DNA of 64,000 nucleotides from contig JADZAN010000001.1 of the NCBI GenBank assembly GCA_020852815.1, positions 62,001 to 126,000 on the forward strand, read 5' to 3'. The translations under genes were made by a program, and so were the position numbers. The stretch is from Gemmatimonadaceae bacterium. GTDB taxonomy: Bacteria > Gemmatimonadota > Gemmatimonadetes > Gemmatimonadales > Gemmatimonadaceae. Shown one piece after another: positions 16,600-39,727 of the stretch (its first letter is position 1; each line of letters begins with the position of its first letter). A model generated the notes under the pieces. It made no database searches. It was given only the letters and a program-made list of their open reading frames with translations, and was not told the DNA's origin.

Positions 16600-17019
16600 C
16601 TACAGAATGTCCGACTCGGCGAAGAAGAAGCGCGACTCGCGCGAGGCGTTCTCGTCCGAATCCGACGCGTGAATCGCGTTCCGTTCCTTCGATTCGGCAT
16701 AGAGCTTCCGAACCGTCCCTGCCGCCGCCTCCGCCGGGTCGGTCGCCCCGATCACCTTGCGCAGTTCCGCCACCGCATCACCCCGCTCCAGCACGATCGG
16801 CATGCACTTCCCCGACGTCATGAACGTCACGAGCGACCGGAAGAACGGGCGCTCGCGGTGCACGCCATAGAACTCTTCGGCCTGCGCCGTCGACAGGTGC
16901 ATCACCCGGGCGGCGACGACCGTGAATCCCGCCCCCTCGAGGTGGGCGACGATCTTCCCGGCCTTCCCGACCGCAAAGGCGTCAGGCTTCACGATGGTCA
17001 GCGTACGATTTCCAGCCAT
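16600..17019 (-). CDS. ndk: Nucleoside diphosphate kinase
   Basis: Ndk passes phosphate from ATP to other nucleoside diphosphates through a phosphohistidine. The 139-residue protein has KPDAFAVGKAGKI near the start and the active His117 in RNAIHASDSDENA. Its GGAG Shine-Dalgarno (17030-17027) sits seven bases before the ATG inside a small inverted repeat. It lies downstream of sucC-sucD, a sensible partner because the ligase can make GTP or ATP that Ndk interconverts. Arrays of an 8-bp repeat lie in the 147-base gap upstream. Confidence 0.97.
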   Translation of the reverse strand: MAGNRTLTIVKPDAFAVGKAGKIVAHLEGAGFTVVAARVMHLSTAQAEEFYGVHRERPFFRSLVTFMTSGKCMPIVLERGDAVAELRKVIGATDPAEAAAGTVRKLYAESKERNAIHASDSDENASRESRFFFAESDIL

Positions 17020-17036: not shown

Positions 17037-17037
17037 A

Positions 17038-17154
17038 GAAGACGAGAGGGCGAGAAGACGAGAAGCTTGCCCCAGCGAAGGCTGGGGACGAGGTAGTAAC
17101 CCCACTTAGGGCTGAGAACGCGCCCCTCCCTCGTCTTCTCGTCTTCTCGTCCTC
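17038..17154. repeat. Inverted pair of 8-bp repeat arrays upstream of ndk
   Basis: Three units on the plus strand read GAAGACGA, GAGGGCGA, GAAGACGA (17038-17061). Facing them are TCGTCTTC, TCGTCTTC, TCGTCCTC (17131-17154). Between them lies a short perfect hairpin, CCCCAGC-GAAG-GCTGGGG (17070-17087). The whole block fills the gap between sucD and ndk and could fold into one long stem. The same unit occurs at 19219, 34153 and 39686. Confidence 0.85.
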
Positions 17155-17166
17155 TGTGAACTGCCC

Positions 17167-18035
17167 CTATTTGAGACGCGCTTTCACGAGTTCCACGAAG
17201 TCGATCGGGCGCTTGGCGACGCCCATCCCCGCGTCCTGGAACGATTGGATCTTCTCGGCGGCCGTACCGGCCGAACCCGAGATGATGGCGCCGGCGTGCC
17301 CCATGCGACGCCCCGGCGGGGCCGTCTGCCCGGCGATGAAGCCGACCACCGGCTTGGTCATGTGCTCCTTCACGAACCGGGCGGCGTCCTGCTCGTCCGT
17401 TCCCCCGATCTCCCCCATCATGCAGACCACCTTGGTCGCCGGATCGGCTTCGAAGGCGGCCAGCGTGTCGATGAAGTTGGTCCCGTTGATCGGGTCACCG
17501 CCGATCCCGACGCACGTCGTCTGGCCAATGCCGGCACGCGTGAGTTGGTAGACGATCTCGTAGGTCAGCGTCCCTGAACGGGAGACGACGCCCACCGGTC
17601 CGGGGGCGCAGATGCGTCCGGGGATGATGCCGACCTTCGATTCCCCGGGCGAGATGAGCCCCGGGCAGTTCGGGCCAAGGAGACGAACGCCCTTCTCCGT
17701 CACGTACGGATAGACGCGCGTCATGTCGAGGACGGGGACGCCCTCGGTGATGGCAACGATGAACTGGACGCCGGCATCGGCCGCCTCGATGATCGCGTCG
17801 GCGGCGAACATCGGCGGGACGTAGATGACGGACGTGTTCGCCCCCGTGGCCTGCACGGCGTCGGCAACCGTGTTGTAGACCGGTACGGTTCCCTCGAACT
17901 TCTGTCCGCCCTTGCCCGGCGTGACGCCGGCAACGATGCGGGTCCCGTACTCGATCATCTGCTTCGTGTGGAACGATCCATCACGTCCCGTGATCCCCTG
18001 CACGACGACGGTCGTGTCCTTTCCGATGAAGACGC

Positions 18036-18039
<4 letters not shown>
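17167..18039 (-). CDS. sucD: Succinate-CoA ligase (ADP/GDP-forming), alpha subunit
   Basis: SucD forms the active succinyl-CoA ligase with SucC, making a nucleoside triphosphate in the TCA cycle. The 290-residue protein has the CoA-binding start [18 protein letters not shown] and the phosphorylated His248 in [28 protein letters not shown] and [12 protein letters not shown] are typical. Its ATG overlaps the sucC stop by four bases. It ends just before the repeat block upstream of ndk. Confidence 0.98.
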
Positions 18040-19181
<1,142 letters not shown>

Positions 19182-19218: not shown

Positions 19219-19318
19219 AAAGACGAGAAGACGAGGGGAAGAAGGAGCCGGCATCGAGGTCCAGCGCCTCGGCCGAGCGATTGCACCTTCCCGATGGGAC
19301 GTCTTCCCGTCTTCCGCG
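19219..19318. repeat. 8-bp repeat array with inverted partner upstream of sucC
   Basis: Plus strand reads AAAGACGA, GAAGACGA, GGGGAAGA (19219-19242), and a degenerate inverted copy, ACGTCTTCCCGTCTTCC, lies near 19299-19315. On the sucC coding strand this is a pyrimidine-rich run ending about 37 bases before the GTG. It is the second member of the family at 17038, 34153 and 39686. The rest of the 172-base gap shows no gene. Confidence 0.7.
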
Positions 19319-31259: not shown

Positions 31260-32827
31260 GTCGCCGCTCCCGCGAACTGTGCCGCGTCGACGACCGGGAG
31301 GCCGCGCAACCCGAGCGCCTCGAACGAGAGGCCGGCGAAGGCCGGTTCGCTCGCCGCGAGCGCGGCAAAGGCATCGGCCGCGGCAAAGTACTCGGCCCGC
31401 TCGCCTAACGCGGCCAGCAGGTCGGCGAGGACATACCAGCTCGGGCGCGCCATTCCCGGCGTTGCCTTGGCCTGCAGGAAGCGCTGCACGCGCCCGCGCA
31501 GGTTGGTCAGCGTCCCTTCCTCCTCCACGATGTTGGCGATGGGAAGGATGATGTCGGCCCTGGTGAGGTTGGCCGGCATCGCCGTCCCCACCACCACGAT
31601 CGCCGAGGCCCTGGCCACCGCCGCTCCCTCCGCCTCGGACAAGTCCTGGTCGGCCACGATGAGGGCATCGCCGGGCTGCATGAGTTCGAGCGGCGACTCG
31701 GAGCGCGTGAAGCCCAGGAGCTTGGCCCCCGTCGCATTCGCCGCACGATCGGCGCGCAGCGCGAGATCGTCCACGCCGGGGAGCGGCGCAACGGCGCCCT
31801 GCGGTACGCGATACGCGCCCACACCCCCCGACTTGCGGACGATGCGTGCCAGCAGGTACAGCGCCTCGTTGGAAAGGTTGGGCGATGCGAGGACAAAGAC
31901 GCGCTTCCCCTTCAGCACGCGTGCCGCGCCCTCGAGCGCCACCTCCCAGTCCACCGTCGAGTGCCCGTTCGCGCCAAGGATGCTGGGCGACTCGAGCCGG
32001 TCACGCCGGTTGAGCCAGCGGTAGTTACCGCGCCCGTGGTCGCACATGAAGAACTGGTTCACGCTCTCATTGGAGCGCGGACGCAGGCGCATCACCGTGT
32101 TGTCCCGCGTCTCGACGATGATGTTGCATCCCTGCGAGCAACCGGTGCAGACAGACGCCGTCCGGTCCAGCTCCCAGGCGCGCGCCTTGTTGAGGAAGTC
32201 CTTGGAGAGGAGCGCGCCCACCGGGCACAGGTCGACGACGTTGGCCGCCCACGGGTGCGTGAGGTCCTTCCCCTCGAACTTCCCGATGAAGGCGCGGTCG
32301 CCGCGCTCGCTGACATTGAGCACCGCGTCATGCGCCACGTCGTCCATGAAGCGAACGCAGCGCGTGCACAGGATGCAGCGATTCTGCACGTAGAGGACGT
32401 CGCCACCGAAGTCATCGGCCGGATTGAAGCGCTTGGGCTCGCGGTAGCGCGAGTCCTTGCGCCCTTCCTGGTACGTGTAGTCCTGCAGCTCGCACTCGCC
32501 CGACTGGTCGCAGATGGGGCAGTCGAGCGGGTGGTTGATGAGGAGCATCTCGAGGACGCCCTTGCGTGCCTCGCGCGCCTTCTCGGAGTGCACGTGCACC
32601 ACCTGTCCCTCGGCCACCGCCGTCGCGCACGACGGGGCGAGCTTGGGGAACTTCTCGACTTCCACGAGGCACATGCGGCACACGCCGGCCACGGGAAGTC
32701 CCGGGTGGTAGCAGTAGTGCGGGATGAGGACCCCTGCCGACTTCGCTGCCTCGAGGATCGTGGTCCCCGGGGCGACGGCGACTGGGCGCCCTTCGATGGT
32801 GAGGTTGACTGTCGGAGTGTCTGCCAT
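31256..32827 (-). CDS. nuoG: NADH-quinone oxidoreductase subunit G, short form
   Basis: Iron-sulfur subunit of the NADH arm (523 residues). The 2Fe-2S ferredoxin domain has CYHPGLPVAGVCRMC; next come the His/Cys ligands around CPICDQSGECELQDY, CILCTRCVRFMDDV and CTGCSQGCNI. After about 250 it has a reduced molybdopterin-type domain, far shorter than the roughly 900-residue E. coli subunit, and no Mo cofactor is expected. Start overlaps the nuoF stop. Confidence 0.96.
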   Translation of the reverse strand: MADTPTVNLTIEGRPVAVAPGTTILEAAKSAGVLIPHYCYHPGLPVAGVCRMCLVEVEKFPKLAPSCATAVAEGQVVHVHSEKAREARKGVLEMLLINHPLDCPICDQSGECELQDYTYQEGRKDSRYREPKRFNPADDFGGDVLYVQNRCILCTRCVRFMDDVAHDAVLNVSERGDRAFIGKFEGKDLTHPWAANVVDLCPVGALLSKDFLNKARAWELDRTASVCTGCSQGCNIIVETRDNTVMRLRPRSNESVNQFFMCDHGRGNYRWLNRRDRLESPSILGANGHSTVDWEVALEGAARVLKGKRVFVLASPNLSNEALYLLARIVRKSGGVGAYRVPQGAVAPLPGVDDLALRADRAANATGAKLLGFTRSESPLELMQPGDALIVADQDLSEAEGAAVARASAIVVVGTAMPANLTRADIILPIANIVEEEGTLTNLRGRVQRFLQAKATPGMARPSWYVLADLLAALGERAEYFAAADAFAALAASEPAFAGLSFEALGLRGLPVVDAAQFAGAAT

Positions 32828-34143
32828 CAGGCCACCACGGCGGGGACGGCGTGCACGGTCTTGGTCTTGATGAGGGCTTCGAACTCATGGCGGAACTTCG
32901 CGAGCCCCGACGACACCGGCGTGGCGCACGAGTCGCTCAGCACGCAGATCGTCTTCCCGGTCATGTTCTCGCCGATCTCCAGGAGCGTATCGAGGTCCTC
33001 GGCCGTCCCGTCGCCAGCGACGATGCGCTCGAGGATCTTGGTGGTCCACGCAGTCCCTTCGCGGCACTGCGTGCATTGCGCGCAGCTCTCGTGCGCGTAG
33101 AAGCGCGCGAGGCGTGCAATCTGCCTGGGCATCGACTGCGCGCTATCGATCACGATGCAGCCGGCGGAGCCGAGCATCGTCCCGACGGCCATCATTCCTT
33201 CGTAGTCCATCACCGCACGCTCGGCCTCCTCGCGCGTGATGATCGGGACCGAGCAGCCGCCGGGGATCACCGCCTTGATGGTGCGCCCCTGGGGCGCGCC
33301 GCCGCAGACGTCGTTGAGGAACTCCCCGAACGGGAAGCCCATCTCCACTTCGTAGTTCCCCGGGCGCTGAATGTTGCCGCACACGCTCCAGAGCTTGGTC
33401 CCCGTCGACTTGGGGTTGTCGGGGCGCGACATCTTCTTGTACCAGTCGGCGCCGTGGTTCAGGATGTGCGGCACCGCGGTGAGCGTCTCGACGTTGTTGA
33501 TCGTCGTCGGCTTGCCGAACAAACCAGCGACTGCCGGGAAGGGCGGCTTGATGCGCGGGTTGCCGCGTCGCCCCTCGATCGAGTTCATCAACGCGGTTTC
33601 TTCCCCGCAGATGTAGGCCCCCGCGCCACGATGCACCCAGACGTTCACCGTCTTGCCCGACCCCATCGCGTTCTTCCCGACCACACCGGCGTTGCGCGCC
33701 TCGACAAGCGCCGCCTCCATCACCGCGATCGGTTCGGTGAACTCGCCGCGGATGTAGATGTAGGCGTTCTCGGCGCCGATCGCGTGGGCGCCGATCGCCA
33801 CCCCCTCGATGAGGGCGTGCGGCGTCCAGCGCATGATCTCGCGGTCCTTGAACGTTCCGGGCTCGGACTCGTCGGCGTTGCAGCACAGGTAGTGCGGCTT
33901 GCCGTCGCCGATCTTCATGAACGACCACTTGAGCCCCGTGGGGAACCCGGCGCCGCCACGCCCGCGCAGCCCCGATTCCTTCACGACGTTCTGGATCGCG
34001 ACCGGGTCCATGCCTAACGCCGTCTCCAGCGCCTTGTAACCGCCGCGCTTCTTCCACCCGTCGAGCGACCGGGCGTCCCCCTCGCCGAAGTGCTTCGACA
34101 GGACGAGGGTCTCGCGGGGATGTGGTTGGTGCGGGTAACCCAT
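32827..34143 (-). CDS. nuoF: NADH-quinone oxidoreductase subunit F (NADH and FMN binding)
   Basis: Catalytic subunit that oxidises NADH through FMN and cluster N3. The 438-residue protein has GLRGRGGAGFPTGLKW, the FMN site CNADESEPGTFKDREI, IYIRGEFTEP, GAGAYICGEETALMNSIEG and cluster ligands ESCAQCTQCREGT. Its ATG is nine bases downstream of a four-unit TCGTCYTC array and has no clear Shine-Dalgarno, unlike its tightly overlapping neighbours. It is separated from nuoE by 45 bases, the only sizeable gap in the operon. Confidence 0.98.
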   Translation of the reverse strand: MGYPHQPHPRETLVLSKHFGEGDARSLDGWKKRGGYKALETALGMDPVAIQNVVKESGLRGRGGAGFPTGLKWSFMKIGDGKPHYLCCNADESEPGTFKDREIMRWTPHALIEGVAIGAHAIGAENAYIYIRGEFTEPIAVMEAALVEARNAGVVGKNAMGSGKTVNVWVHRGAGAYICGEETALMNSIEGRRGNPRIKPPFPAVAGLFGKPTTINNVETLTAVPHILNHGADWYKKMSRPDNPKSTGTKLWSVCGNIQRPGNYEVEMGFPFGEFLNDVCGGAPQGRTIKAVIPGGCSVPIITREEAERAVMDYEGMMAVGTMLGSAGCIVIDSAQSMPRQIARLARFYAHESCAQCTQCREGTAWTTKILERIVAGDGTAEDLDTLLEIGENMTGKTICVLSDSCATPVSSGLAKFRHEFEALIKTKTVHAVPAVVA

Positions 34144-34152
34144 GTGCTTCGG

Positions 34153-34184
34153 GAAGACGAGAGGACGAGAGGACGAGAAGACGC
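34153..34184. repeat. Four-unit 8-bp tandem repeat between nuoE and nuoF
   Basis: Plus strand units GAAGACGA, GAGGACGA, GAGGACGA, GAAGACGC with an exact 8-base period; on the nuo mRNA this is a UCGUCYUC run ending nine bases before the nuoF ATG. It fills most of the nuoE-nuoF gap. Same family as 17038, 19219 and 39686. Confidence 0.9.
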
Positions 34185-34188
34185 GTGG

Positions 34189-34734
34189 CTACTGGTACTT
34201 CTTGAGCACGTCGGAGACGTTCTCGGGGGTGACCGATTCGAGGAAGTCCTCGTTGACCATGATGGGCGTGGCGAAGCCGCAGGCGCCGAGGCACTCGACC
34301 TCGATGACGGTGTAGCGACCGTCGAGCGACGTGACCCCCAACTCGCCGCAGCCGGTCTGGTCGAGGAAGGCCTTCACCACGTCCTCGGCGCCACACACGT
34401 GACAGGGCGAGGTAGTGCACACCTGGATGAAGTACTTCCCCACCGGGTGCTGGTGGTACATGGTGTAGAAGCTCACCACCCCCTTCACGTACGCGGGCGT
34501 GATGTCCAGCAGCGATGCGATCTCCGCCATCCCCGCCTCGCTCACCCAGCCGCGCGCCTGCTGCAACATCCACAGCGCGGGGAGCAGCGCCGCCTGCTTG
34601 GAGGGATAGCGCGTGAGGAGATCATCGAGCTTCGCCCGGGTGTCGCCGACAAAGACGGGGACGTGCGGCTCGTCGTGATGGCCATGCCCCGCCTTGAGGA
34701 CGGCACCGCCGGCTGCTGAAGGTCCGTGACTCAT
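34189..34734 (-). CDS. nuoE: NADH-quinone oxidoreductase subunit E (2Fe-2S)
   Basis: Thioredoxin-like 24 kDa subunit with cluster N1a (181 residues). Ligand cysteines are in VCTTSPCHVCGAEDVV and ECLGACGFATPI; ALLPALWMLQQARGWVSEAG and YTMYHQHPVGKYFIQVC are typical. It overlaps nuoD by four bases (ATGA). An N-terminal extension has a His-rich patch (HGHHDEPH). Confidence 0.97.
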   Translation of the reverse strand: MSHGPSAAGGAVLKAGHGHHDEPHVPVFVGDTRAKLDDLLTRYPSKQAALLPALWMLQQARGWVSEAGMAEIASLLDITPAYVKGVVSFYTMYHQHPVGKYFIQVCTTSPCHVCGAEDVVKAFLDQTGCGELGVTSLDGRYTVIEVECLGACGFATPIMVNEDFLESVTPENVSDVLKKYQ

Positions 34735-38833: not shown

Positions 38834-38902
38834 CGTCAGGCTACGCGTCAGGCGCCTCGTGAGGTCACTCGTCAGGCATGGCGCCAGCCGCGAGCGTCAG
38901 GC
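38834..38902. repeat. 12-bp periodic direct repeat
   Basis: CGTCAGGC-like octamers recur at 38834, 38846, 38858 (CGTGAGGT), 38870 and 38882 (CGCCAGCC), an exact 12-base period, with a sixth exact copy at 38895. They fill the gap before the sdhB stop. Read in one frame they would encode RQAT RQAP REVT RQAW, but I see no convincing gene. Confidence 0.75.
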
Positions 38903-39678
38903 TAGCCCGCACCCCCCGCTGACTTCCGCTCCTCGACCTCGAACGCGCTCCCGAAGATGTAGTCGCGGTTCATGCGGGCGATGGTGTCGATGGAGATCTC
39001 CTTCGGGCACGCTGCCTGGCACTCGCCGAACAACGTACAACCGCCGAAGTCCTCGAGGTCCATCTGCGCCACCATCTTCAGCGCCCGCCGATAGCGCTCA
39101 GGCTGCCCCTGCGGGAGGTGCCCCAGGTGCGAGATCTTGGCGGCCGTGAAGAGCGACGCGCTCCCGTTGGGGCAGGCGGCGACGCATGCCCCGCACCCGA
39201 TGCATGCCGCCGCATCCATGGCCGAGTCGGCATCGGGCTTGGGCACGGGGAGCGCGTTGCCGTCGGGGGCATTCCCCGTCGACACGGAGACGTAGCCGCC
39301 GGCCTGGATGATCCGGTCGAGGGAGCTGCGATCGACGCAGAGATCGCGCAGCACCGGGAATGCCTGCGCCCGCCACGGCTCGATGGTGATGGTGTCGCCG
39401 TTGCGGAAGGTGCGCATGTGCAGCTGGCACGTCGTGGTGGCCTTCTGCGGGCCGTGCGCCACGCCGTTGATCACCAACCCGCACATGCCGCAGATCCCCT
39501 CGCGGCAGTCGTGGTCGAAGGCGATGGGCTGCTCGCCCTTGTTGGTCAGGTCCTCGTTGACGACATCGAGCATCTCGAGGAACGACATCTCCGCGGTGAC
39601 GTCGTTCGCCTTGTACTCGACAAACTGGCCGGTGGCGGTGGGACCGGACTGCCGCCACACCTTGAGGGTCACGTTCAT
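38902..39678 (-). CDS. sdhB: Succinate dehydrogenase iron-sulfur subunit
   Basis: Carries three Fe-S clusters from SdhA flavin to the membrane. I start at ATG 39678 ([20 protein letters not shown]), 258 residues. Ligands: [20 protein letters not shown] for 2Fe-2[16 protein letters not shown] and [15 protein letters not shown] for the others. The layout (long, non-E. coli type) fits the SdhC-b558/Bacteroidetes-like complexes. No Shine-Dalgarno is seen; a TCGTCYTC array ends seven bases before the ATG. Confidence 0.96.
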
Positions 39679-39685
39679 GGGGACA

Positions 39686-39717
39686 GAAGACGAGAGGACG
39701 GGACGACGAGAAGACGA
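39686..39717. repeat. Four-unit 8-bp tandem repeat between sdhA and sdhB
   Basis: Plus strand units GAAGACGA, GAGGACGG, GACGACGA, GAAGACGA, exact 8-base period, filling the 49-base gap. On the sdh mRNA it is pyrimidine-rich and sits where a ribosome site should be. Same family as 17038, 19219 and 34153. Confidence 0.9.
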
Positions 39718-39727
39718 GGGTGGCCGT

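Follow-up and report, generated by a model that had tools for sequence, protein, structure and literature searches.

Octamer tandem repeats of fixed orientation at gene edges in a Gemmatimonadaceae bacterium

Cyanobacterial STRR heptamers are lineage-specific short tandem repeats found in many intergenic regions, and in this they resemble the octamer TCGTCYTC described here, which has a different unit. REP/BIME and Rickettsia palindromic elements are also dispersed intergenic repeats, and they share with the octamer the formation of inverted pairs and the presence of some in-frame genic copies. In Xanthomonas and Nostoc, GGGAATC repeats and GGGGAYT heptamer repeats, respectively, prefer four units, lie close to ORF edges in a strand-specific manner and form inverted pairs with no bias for a class of genes (Rehm et al., 2015; PMC4692102). 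Eighty-three percent of these repeats are present in the same gene context between species, with varying length; they contain G-tracts and form G-quadruplexes in vitro, a property stressed by the authors (PMC4692102). In marine Beggiatoaceae, direct repeats of TAACTGA lie a few nucleotides before start codons and overlap the position of the ribosome-binding site (MacGregor, 2015; PMC4679880). They occur in reverse orientation inside ORFs and are not linked to a functional class, and binding by S1, Csp or Csr has been proposed (PMC4679880). A literature search found no paper on such repeats in Gemmatimonadota.

The DNA analyzed here (the window) is a stretch of 64,000 nucleotides from a Gemmatimonadaceae genome, in which nuoF (32827-34143, minus strand; NCBIfam TIGR01959) and nuoE (34189-34734, minus strand; NCBIfam TIGR01958) are separated by a gap of 45 nt. 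On the coding (minus) strand, the gap reads CCACG-CGTCTTC-TCGTCCTC-TCGTCCTC-TCGTCTTC-CCGAAGCAC-ATG. In an octamer array of 3.9 units (34153-34183, minus strand), the T end is separated from the nuoF ATG by 9 nt, and the opposite end lies 5 nt past the nuoE stop codon. A preliminary description had presented four exact units; three are exact, and the fourth has a changed or missing first base (34153-34183/4). The array itself is real and far beyond chance, with 10 two-unit matches (at most one mismatch) in the window and 0.05 expected in shuffles. Rfam covariance models gave no match in the window at gathering thresholds.

The unit had also been reported upstream of ndk, sdhB and sucC, and it is found there. 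One array (17037-17065, minus strand) has its T end 17 nt before the ATG of ndk (16600-17019, minus strand; NCBIfam NF001908). An imperfect array of 34 bp and about four units (39685-39718, minus strand) ends 6 nt before sdhB (38902-39678, minus strand; NCBIfam NF005746) and has a counterpart at the same place in a second species of the genus (G002). The array before sucC (18036-19181, minus strand; NCBIfam NF001913) is short, with only about two units (19220-19239, minus strand) and its T end 38 nt from the gene; a degenerate two-unit array, (CGTCTTCC)2, at 19300-19315 (plus strand) is a possible but weak inverted partner. The window holds a fifth array, however, contrary to the account that four of four lie before energy genes. 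This array (17130-17155, plus strand) is antisense to sucD (17167-18039, minus strand; NCBIfam NF004230) and its T end follows the sucD stop codon at a distance of 11 nt, so that the array borders an end rather than a start. Together with the ndk array it makes an inverted pair spanning the sucD-ndk gap, with the ndk array as left arm and the sucD array as right arm.

The whole genome (5.38 Mb) contains 466 exact two-unit matches, and a reversed-pattern control gave 0. Arrays, defined as 20 bp or more, were placed relative to genes in 1.58 Mb (29% of the genome), for which a small home-made hexamer-based caller gave 1271 genes; stop-side results are independent of the caller's choice of starts, and the in-gene count depends on the caller. 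This part of the genome has 55 arrays, 8 inside genes and 47 intergenic or at gene edges, and scaling by the 466 matches gives an estimate of 150-200 arrays for the whole genome. Like the Xanthomonas and Nostoc repeats (PMC4692102), the octamer is thus a dispersed tandem unit of 7-8 bp that is mostly intergenic (47/55 arrays) and for which four units are preferred: the typical array is C(TCGTCYTC)4T, and four units are found in 36/55 arrays. The preference is weaker in stretches of G002 and of another congener, G001 (8/17).

The position of the arrays follows a strict rule. In 41 of the 47 non-genic arrays, the T end of the TCGTCYTC strand lies no more than 20 nt from the edge of a CDS, whereas arrays placed and oriented at random within these gaps gave 17.3 +/- 2.5 such cases, with a maximum of 27 in 2000 simulations. 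Nineteen of these edge arrays face a start on the same strand (sense), and 22 face the stop of a gene on the opposite strand (antisense). When the gap is roomy, 30/32 arrays are nearer to an edge on their T side, and 9/23 stop-side arrays have two bases in common with the stop codon. The same rule applies in the G002 stretches and a G001 contig, where 17/17 arrays lie within -11 to 8 nt of an edge. The Xanthomonas and Nostoc repeats have the same arrangement: a given strand of the repeat is antisense when it precedes a start and sense when it follows a stop (41/47 for the octamer; PMC4692102). The octamer arrays are a gene-edge dispersed repeat of fixed orientation, found before starts and after stops alike, for which gene function is immaterial. 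The genome-wide check bears out the part of the preliminary description that saw a non-random, directional element hugging gene edges (41/47 against 17.3); as an element of start codons it does not hold, since starts are not favored over stops (19 vs 22), 8 arrays lie in genes and energy genes are not enriched.

The proposed tie to genes of the TCA cycle, complex I and nucleotide energy balance gives way to genes of every class when the bordering genes are named by NCBIfam. Outside the window, start-side arrays precede accC, rpiB, eno, mraY, queD, pilT, pilC, prfC, argD and genes for an acyl-CoA dehydrogenase, an amino-acid dehydrogenase, an aminotransferase, a histidine kinase, a protein kinase and an NtrC-like regulator, as well as a fumarylacetoacetate-hydrolase-family gene and unknowns. 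Among the 18 start-side genes checked there, no name pointed to the TCA cycle, complex I or ndk. Stop-side genes include purH, rho, a Rid-family gene and genes for a methylmalonyl-CoA mutase subunit, PBP1A, dihydrolipoyl dehydrogenase, MMSDH, M16-like peptidases, a GGDEF/EAL protein and cystathionine beta-synthase. The names rule out an energy-gene regulon, and the bias seen at first arose because the window holds the suc, sdh and nuo genes. We infer that the octamer is not a regulator of particular genes. In this, it is similar to TAACTGA, which also forms direct repeats near starts, takes the reverse orientation within ORFs and has no functional class (PMC4679880). Conversely, the octamer borders stops as often as starts, whereas most TAACTGA arrays face starts, and TAACTGA carries stop codons, whereas the octamer has none (PMC4679880).

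The distribution also bears on the idea of a pyrimidine array that, placed ahead of the ATG, recruits ribosomal protein S1 in place of a Shine-Dalgarno sequence. The distance from array to start is 0-20 nt in 19 cases, only 3/19 of the genes concerned have a Shine-Dalgarno-like 4-mer, and the nuoF leader RNA, like that of sdhB, is predicted to be unstructured. Although nuoF indeed has no clear Shine-Dalgarno, this is ordinary here because such 4-mers are scarce: they are found in 30% of called genes and in 23% of those with at least 35 nt upstream, so that starts without them are the rule (77% of genes with an upstream gap), and their absence is ruled out as a special sign. An S1-binding leader leaves the stop-side half of the arrays unaccounted for: 22 are antisense arrays past a stop, and a further 8 are purine-sense arrays within genes. 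No array was detected at nuoF when it was looked for in G002. A start-codon leader as the sole role is ruled out by the stop-side arrays, and a translation leader in general is highly improbable.

All 8 in-gene arrays are in the purine sense. They lie in ileS, mutS, hisF, uvrA, two genes for ABC ATPases, an msrB-like gene and an unassigned ORF (C2:286427-288268) that may be two genes fused by the caller; the names msrB-like and ABC are readings of the translations. In ileS, mutS and one ABC ATPase gene, the arrays encode EDEKTRGR-like stretches in linkers that vary among relatives, and in hisF, the msrB-like gene and the other ABC ATPase gene they are near the C-terminus. Thus, arrays occur wherever coding constraint is weak, and their orientation is always the one that yields charged residues in place of hydrophobic ones. 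The MutS, IleRS and ABC linkers of relatives have a similar length without an array. Clean insertion inside genes was rejected on the basis of these array-free linkers, and neither an empty site nor a target duplication was found.

Mobility has a candidate agent in a Y1 (RAYT-like) transposase, which would move a miniature transposable element or REP of which the octamer is the terminal part. REP-like hairpins (CCCAGCCTTCGCTGGG) are found within 80 bp of 13/55 arrays, always on the gap-interior side, and the genome (G000) has one Y1_Tnp gene; yet 42/55 arrays have no REP within 80 bp, and the in-gene arrays sit in linkers as long as those of relatives and not in a clean extra insert. Moreover, G002 has 301 octamer matches and no Y1_Tnp gene, so the Y1 transposase is not required. 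RAYT/REP transposition was rejected as unneeded in G002, and the octamer is very unlikely to be part of such an element. Unlike REP/BIME and the Rickettsia palindromic elements, the array has no conserved palindrome and needs no RAYT (absent from G002), and its unit is a tandem octamer. The REP-like hairpin, seen in the window at 17063-17080 and in the contigs of this genome (1.58 Mb), has 37 copies, 33 of them intergenic, with a head (CTTCTCGTC) that keeps the octamer phase. The Y1_Tnp gene (L096; G000:C9:243554-243886), IS200/RAYT-like, is the sole one of the genome, with none in two congeners, and may be the partner of the REP hairpin. A viral origin was also considered and rejected, as a search of viral contigs for the octamer gave 0 matches.

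Another feature in common with the Xanthomonas and Nostoc repeats (PMC4692102) is frequent inverted pairing. Arrays that share a gap are inverted (-,+) in 11/11 pairs with their T ends outward, where about one pair or none is expected by chance. Such pairs could act as a long RNA or DNA stem with a role in mRNA protection or insulation, or a REP/BIME-like role, and single arrays would then be remnants of pairs. The outward orientation of all 11 pairs is consistent with this, and so is the predicted fold of the sucD-ndk gap RNA, with -69.8 kcal/mol where shuffles average -49.4 (z -5.4). However, the nuoF and sdhB gaps are too small for a stem, and the arms of one gap are often unlike in their Y pattern. 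Among 35 array flanks examined for hidden second arms, 18 had strong partners, 1 had a weak one (score 13) and 16 had none above 9; outside pairs, the second arm is absent and not degraded. Single arrays as decayed inverted pairs were rejected on this ground, and a hairpin element is rather unlikely as the general explanation. The Y patterns also rule out that arrays are recent copies of a single master, as 30 four-unit arrays show 13 different patterns and the arms within a gap often differ.

The octamer is nearly genus-specific. Two-unit matches number 466, 454 and 301 in three congeners (466 in this genome and 301 in G002), whereas the 145 other genomes of the family have 13 altogether, 4 in G109 and 9 in G163. 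This genome and G002 have a median ortholog identity of 84%, and an array is present in at least one of them in five syntenic gaps and common to both in 3/5. At sdhB, 30/34 array positions are identical in G002 while the remainder of the gap does not align, and the retention of the array in a gap that diverged hints at constraint. At ndk, the array differs in length, with about 8 units in G002 compared with about 3.5 in this genome, and such a change in unit number at a shared locus points to slippage. The nuoF array is common to this genome and G001.

Other genera have different repeats in the same nuoE-nuoF gap, for instance CTGCCGTCTACCGTCTACCGTCTG before the ATG. In the genus g13, genome G133 has 319 matches to (CCGTCTR)2. 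In nine loci of 2-3 kb (two of them overlapping), its (CCGTCTA)n arrays obey the same edge rule as the octamer, with the TCTA end close to or touching a start or, for antisense arrays, a stop; at one locus it is 29 nt from the edge. These arrays often supply a TAG stop codon themselves, and the match list again shows adjacent arrays on opposite strands (-,+). At four G133 loci (L212, L216, L218, L241), (TAGACGG)n follows a CDS and its first repeat provides the TAG stop. In genome G011, CGCAGAGG-type arrays are inverted across a convergent gap. In the nuo region, GAGAAACAACA / AGAGAACAAC repeats lie past stop codons at L146, L147 and L149, and the first two of these loci also have CCGTCTR heptamers before nuoF, which places two repeat families, each with its own edge type, in one operon. 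Two further nuo-region loci (L161, L167) have CACCGAGGCACCGAGGACACCG and GGGGTCCGGGGTCC repeats at one gap edge and inverted counterparts of them at the opposite one. In genus g23 (G085, G124), CCGTCTG two-unit motifs are paired in inverted orientation at a spacing of about 180 bp; they differ in this from the g13 arrays and look MITE-type. It is a tentative and doubtful proposal that each genus of the family has its own unit (TCGTCYTC, CCGTCTA, CGCAGAGG-type, GAGAACAAC-type) at the same CDS-edge place and with the same polarity, and that a common process, independent of the unit and of G-quadruplexes, writes or maintains gene-boundary repeats and is also behind those of Xanthomonas and Beggiatoaceae.

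The nuoF array is best read, with a probability of about 0.55, as a member of a dispersed family of short tandem repeats, lineage-specific and located at gene edges, and not as a regulator of particular genes. Arrays would change length in 8-bp steps by slippage, new sites would be gained by copying, and arrays would persist where they are least harmful, at CDS edges and in variable protein linkers. At either edge, it is the pyrimidine strand that runs into the CDS, which puts UCGUCYUC in the mRNA before a start and GARGACGA after a stop. A gap with arrays at both edges could fold into a long hairpin. The orientation rule may come from the process that makes the arrays or from selection on RNA, for which the favored candidate is a C-rich, G-poor, unstructured Rho loading site that would be tolerated or useful only where RNA enters a CDS.

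As a transcription guard, the UCGUCYUC strand would be a candidate Rho-loading (rut-like) site at which transcription that is antisense or untranslated is kept from entering a gene, whichever side it comes from. The orientation is identical at both edges, the CDS-entering strand of the arrays has 44% C, 12% G and 0% A and is rich in YC dinucleotides, the nuoF leader has no stable predicted fold, and an excess of C over G and the same orientation are also seen in the g13 heptamer and in the published Xanthomonas repeat (C-strand). Nevertheless, only a small fraction of gaps has an array, the C>G skew of edges without an array is only weak for starts and nearly nil for stops, and usual rut regions are longer than a 34-nt array. 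Such a guard against transcription is possible but unlikely. A neutral or mildly selected repeat with a polarity set by the way arrays are made is given a chance of about one half. Persistence where harm is least has the array kept in 3/5 syntenic array-bearing gaps counted against it, and the fixed orientation and exact abutment exceed what is expected of a repeat tolerated anywhere harmless, which suggests either a function or a directional writing mechanism.

The octamer belongs to a poorly understood class of gene-edge repeats, of which it is an example without quadruplexes. Its closest known counterparts are the units of Xanthomonas and Nostoc (PMC4692102), from which it differs in that TCGTCYTC/GARGACGA lacks GGG and occurs in a different phylum, and without a run of three G no canonical quadruplex is possible. 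Because, in an unrelated phylum, a repeat incapable of forming quadruplexes agrees with those of Xanthomonas and Nostoc in the number of units, the strand rule and the inverted pairing, quadruplexes are not the general cause of these properties. As genera differ in their unit but keep the position rule, function at gene edges and directional writing become alternatives that can be tested by comparison.
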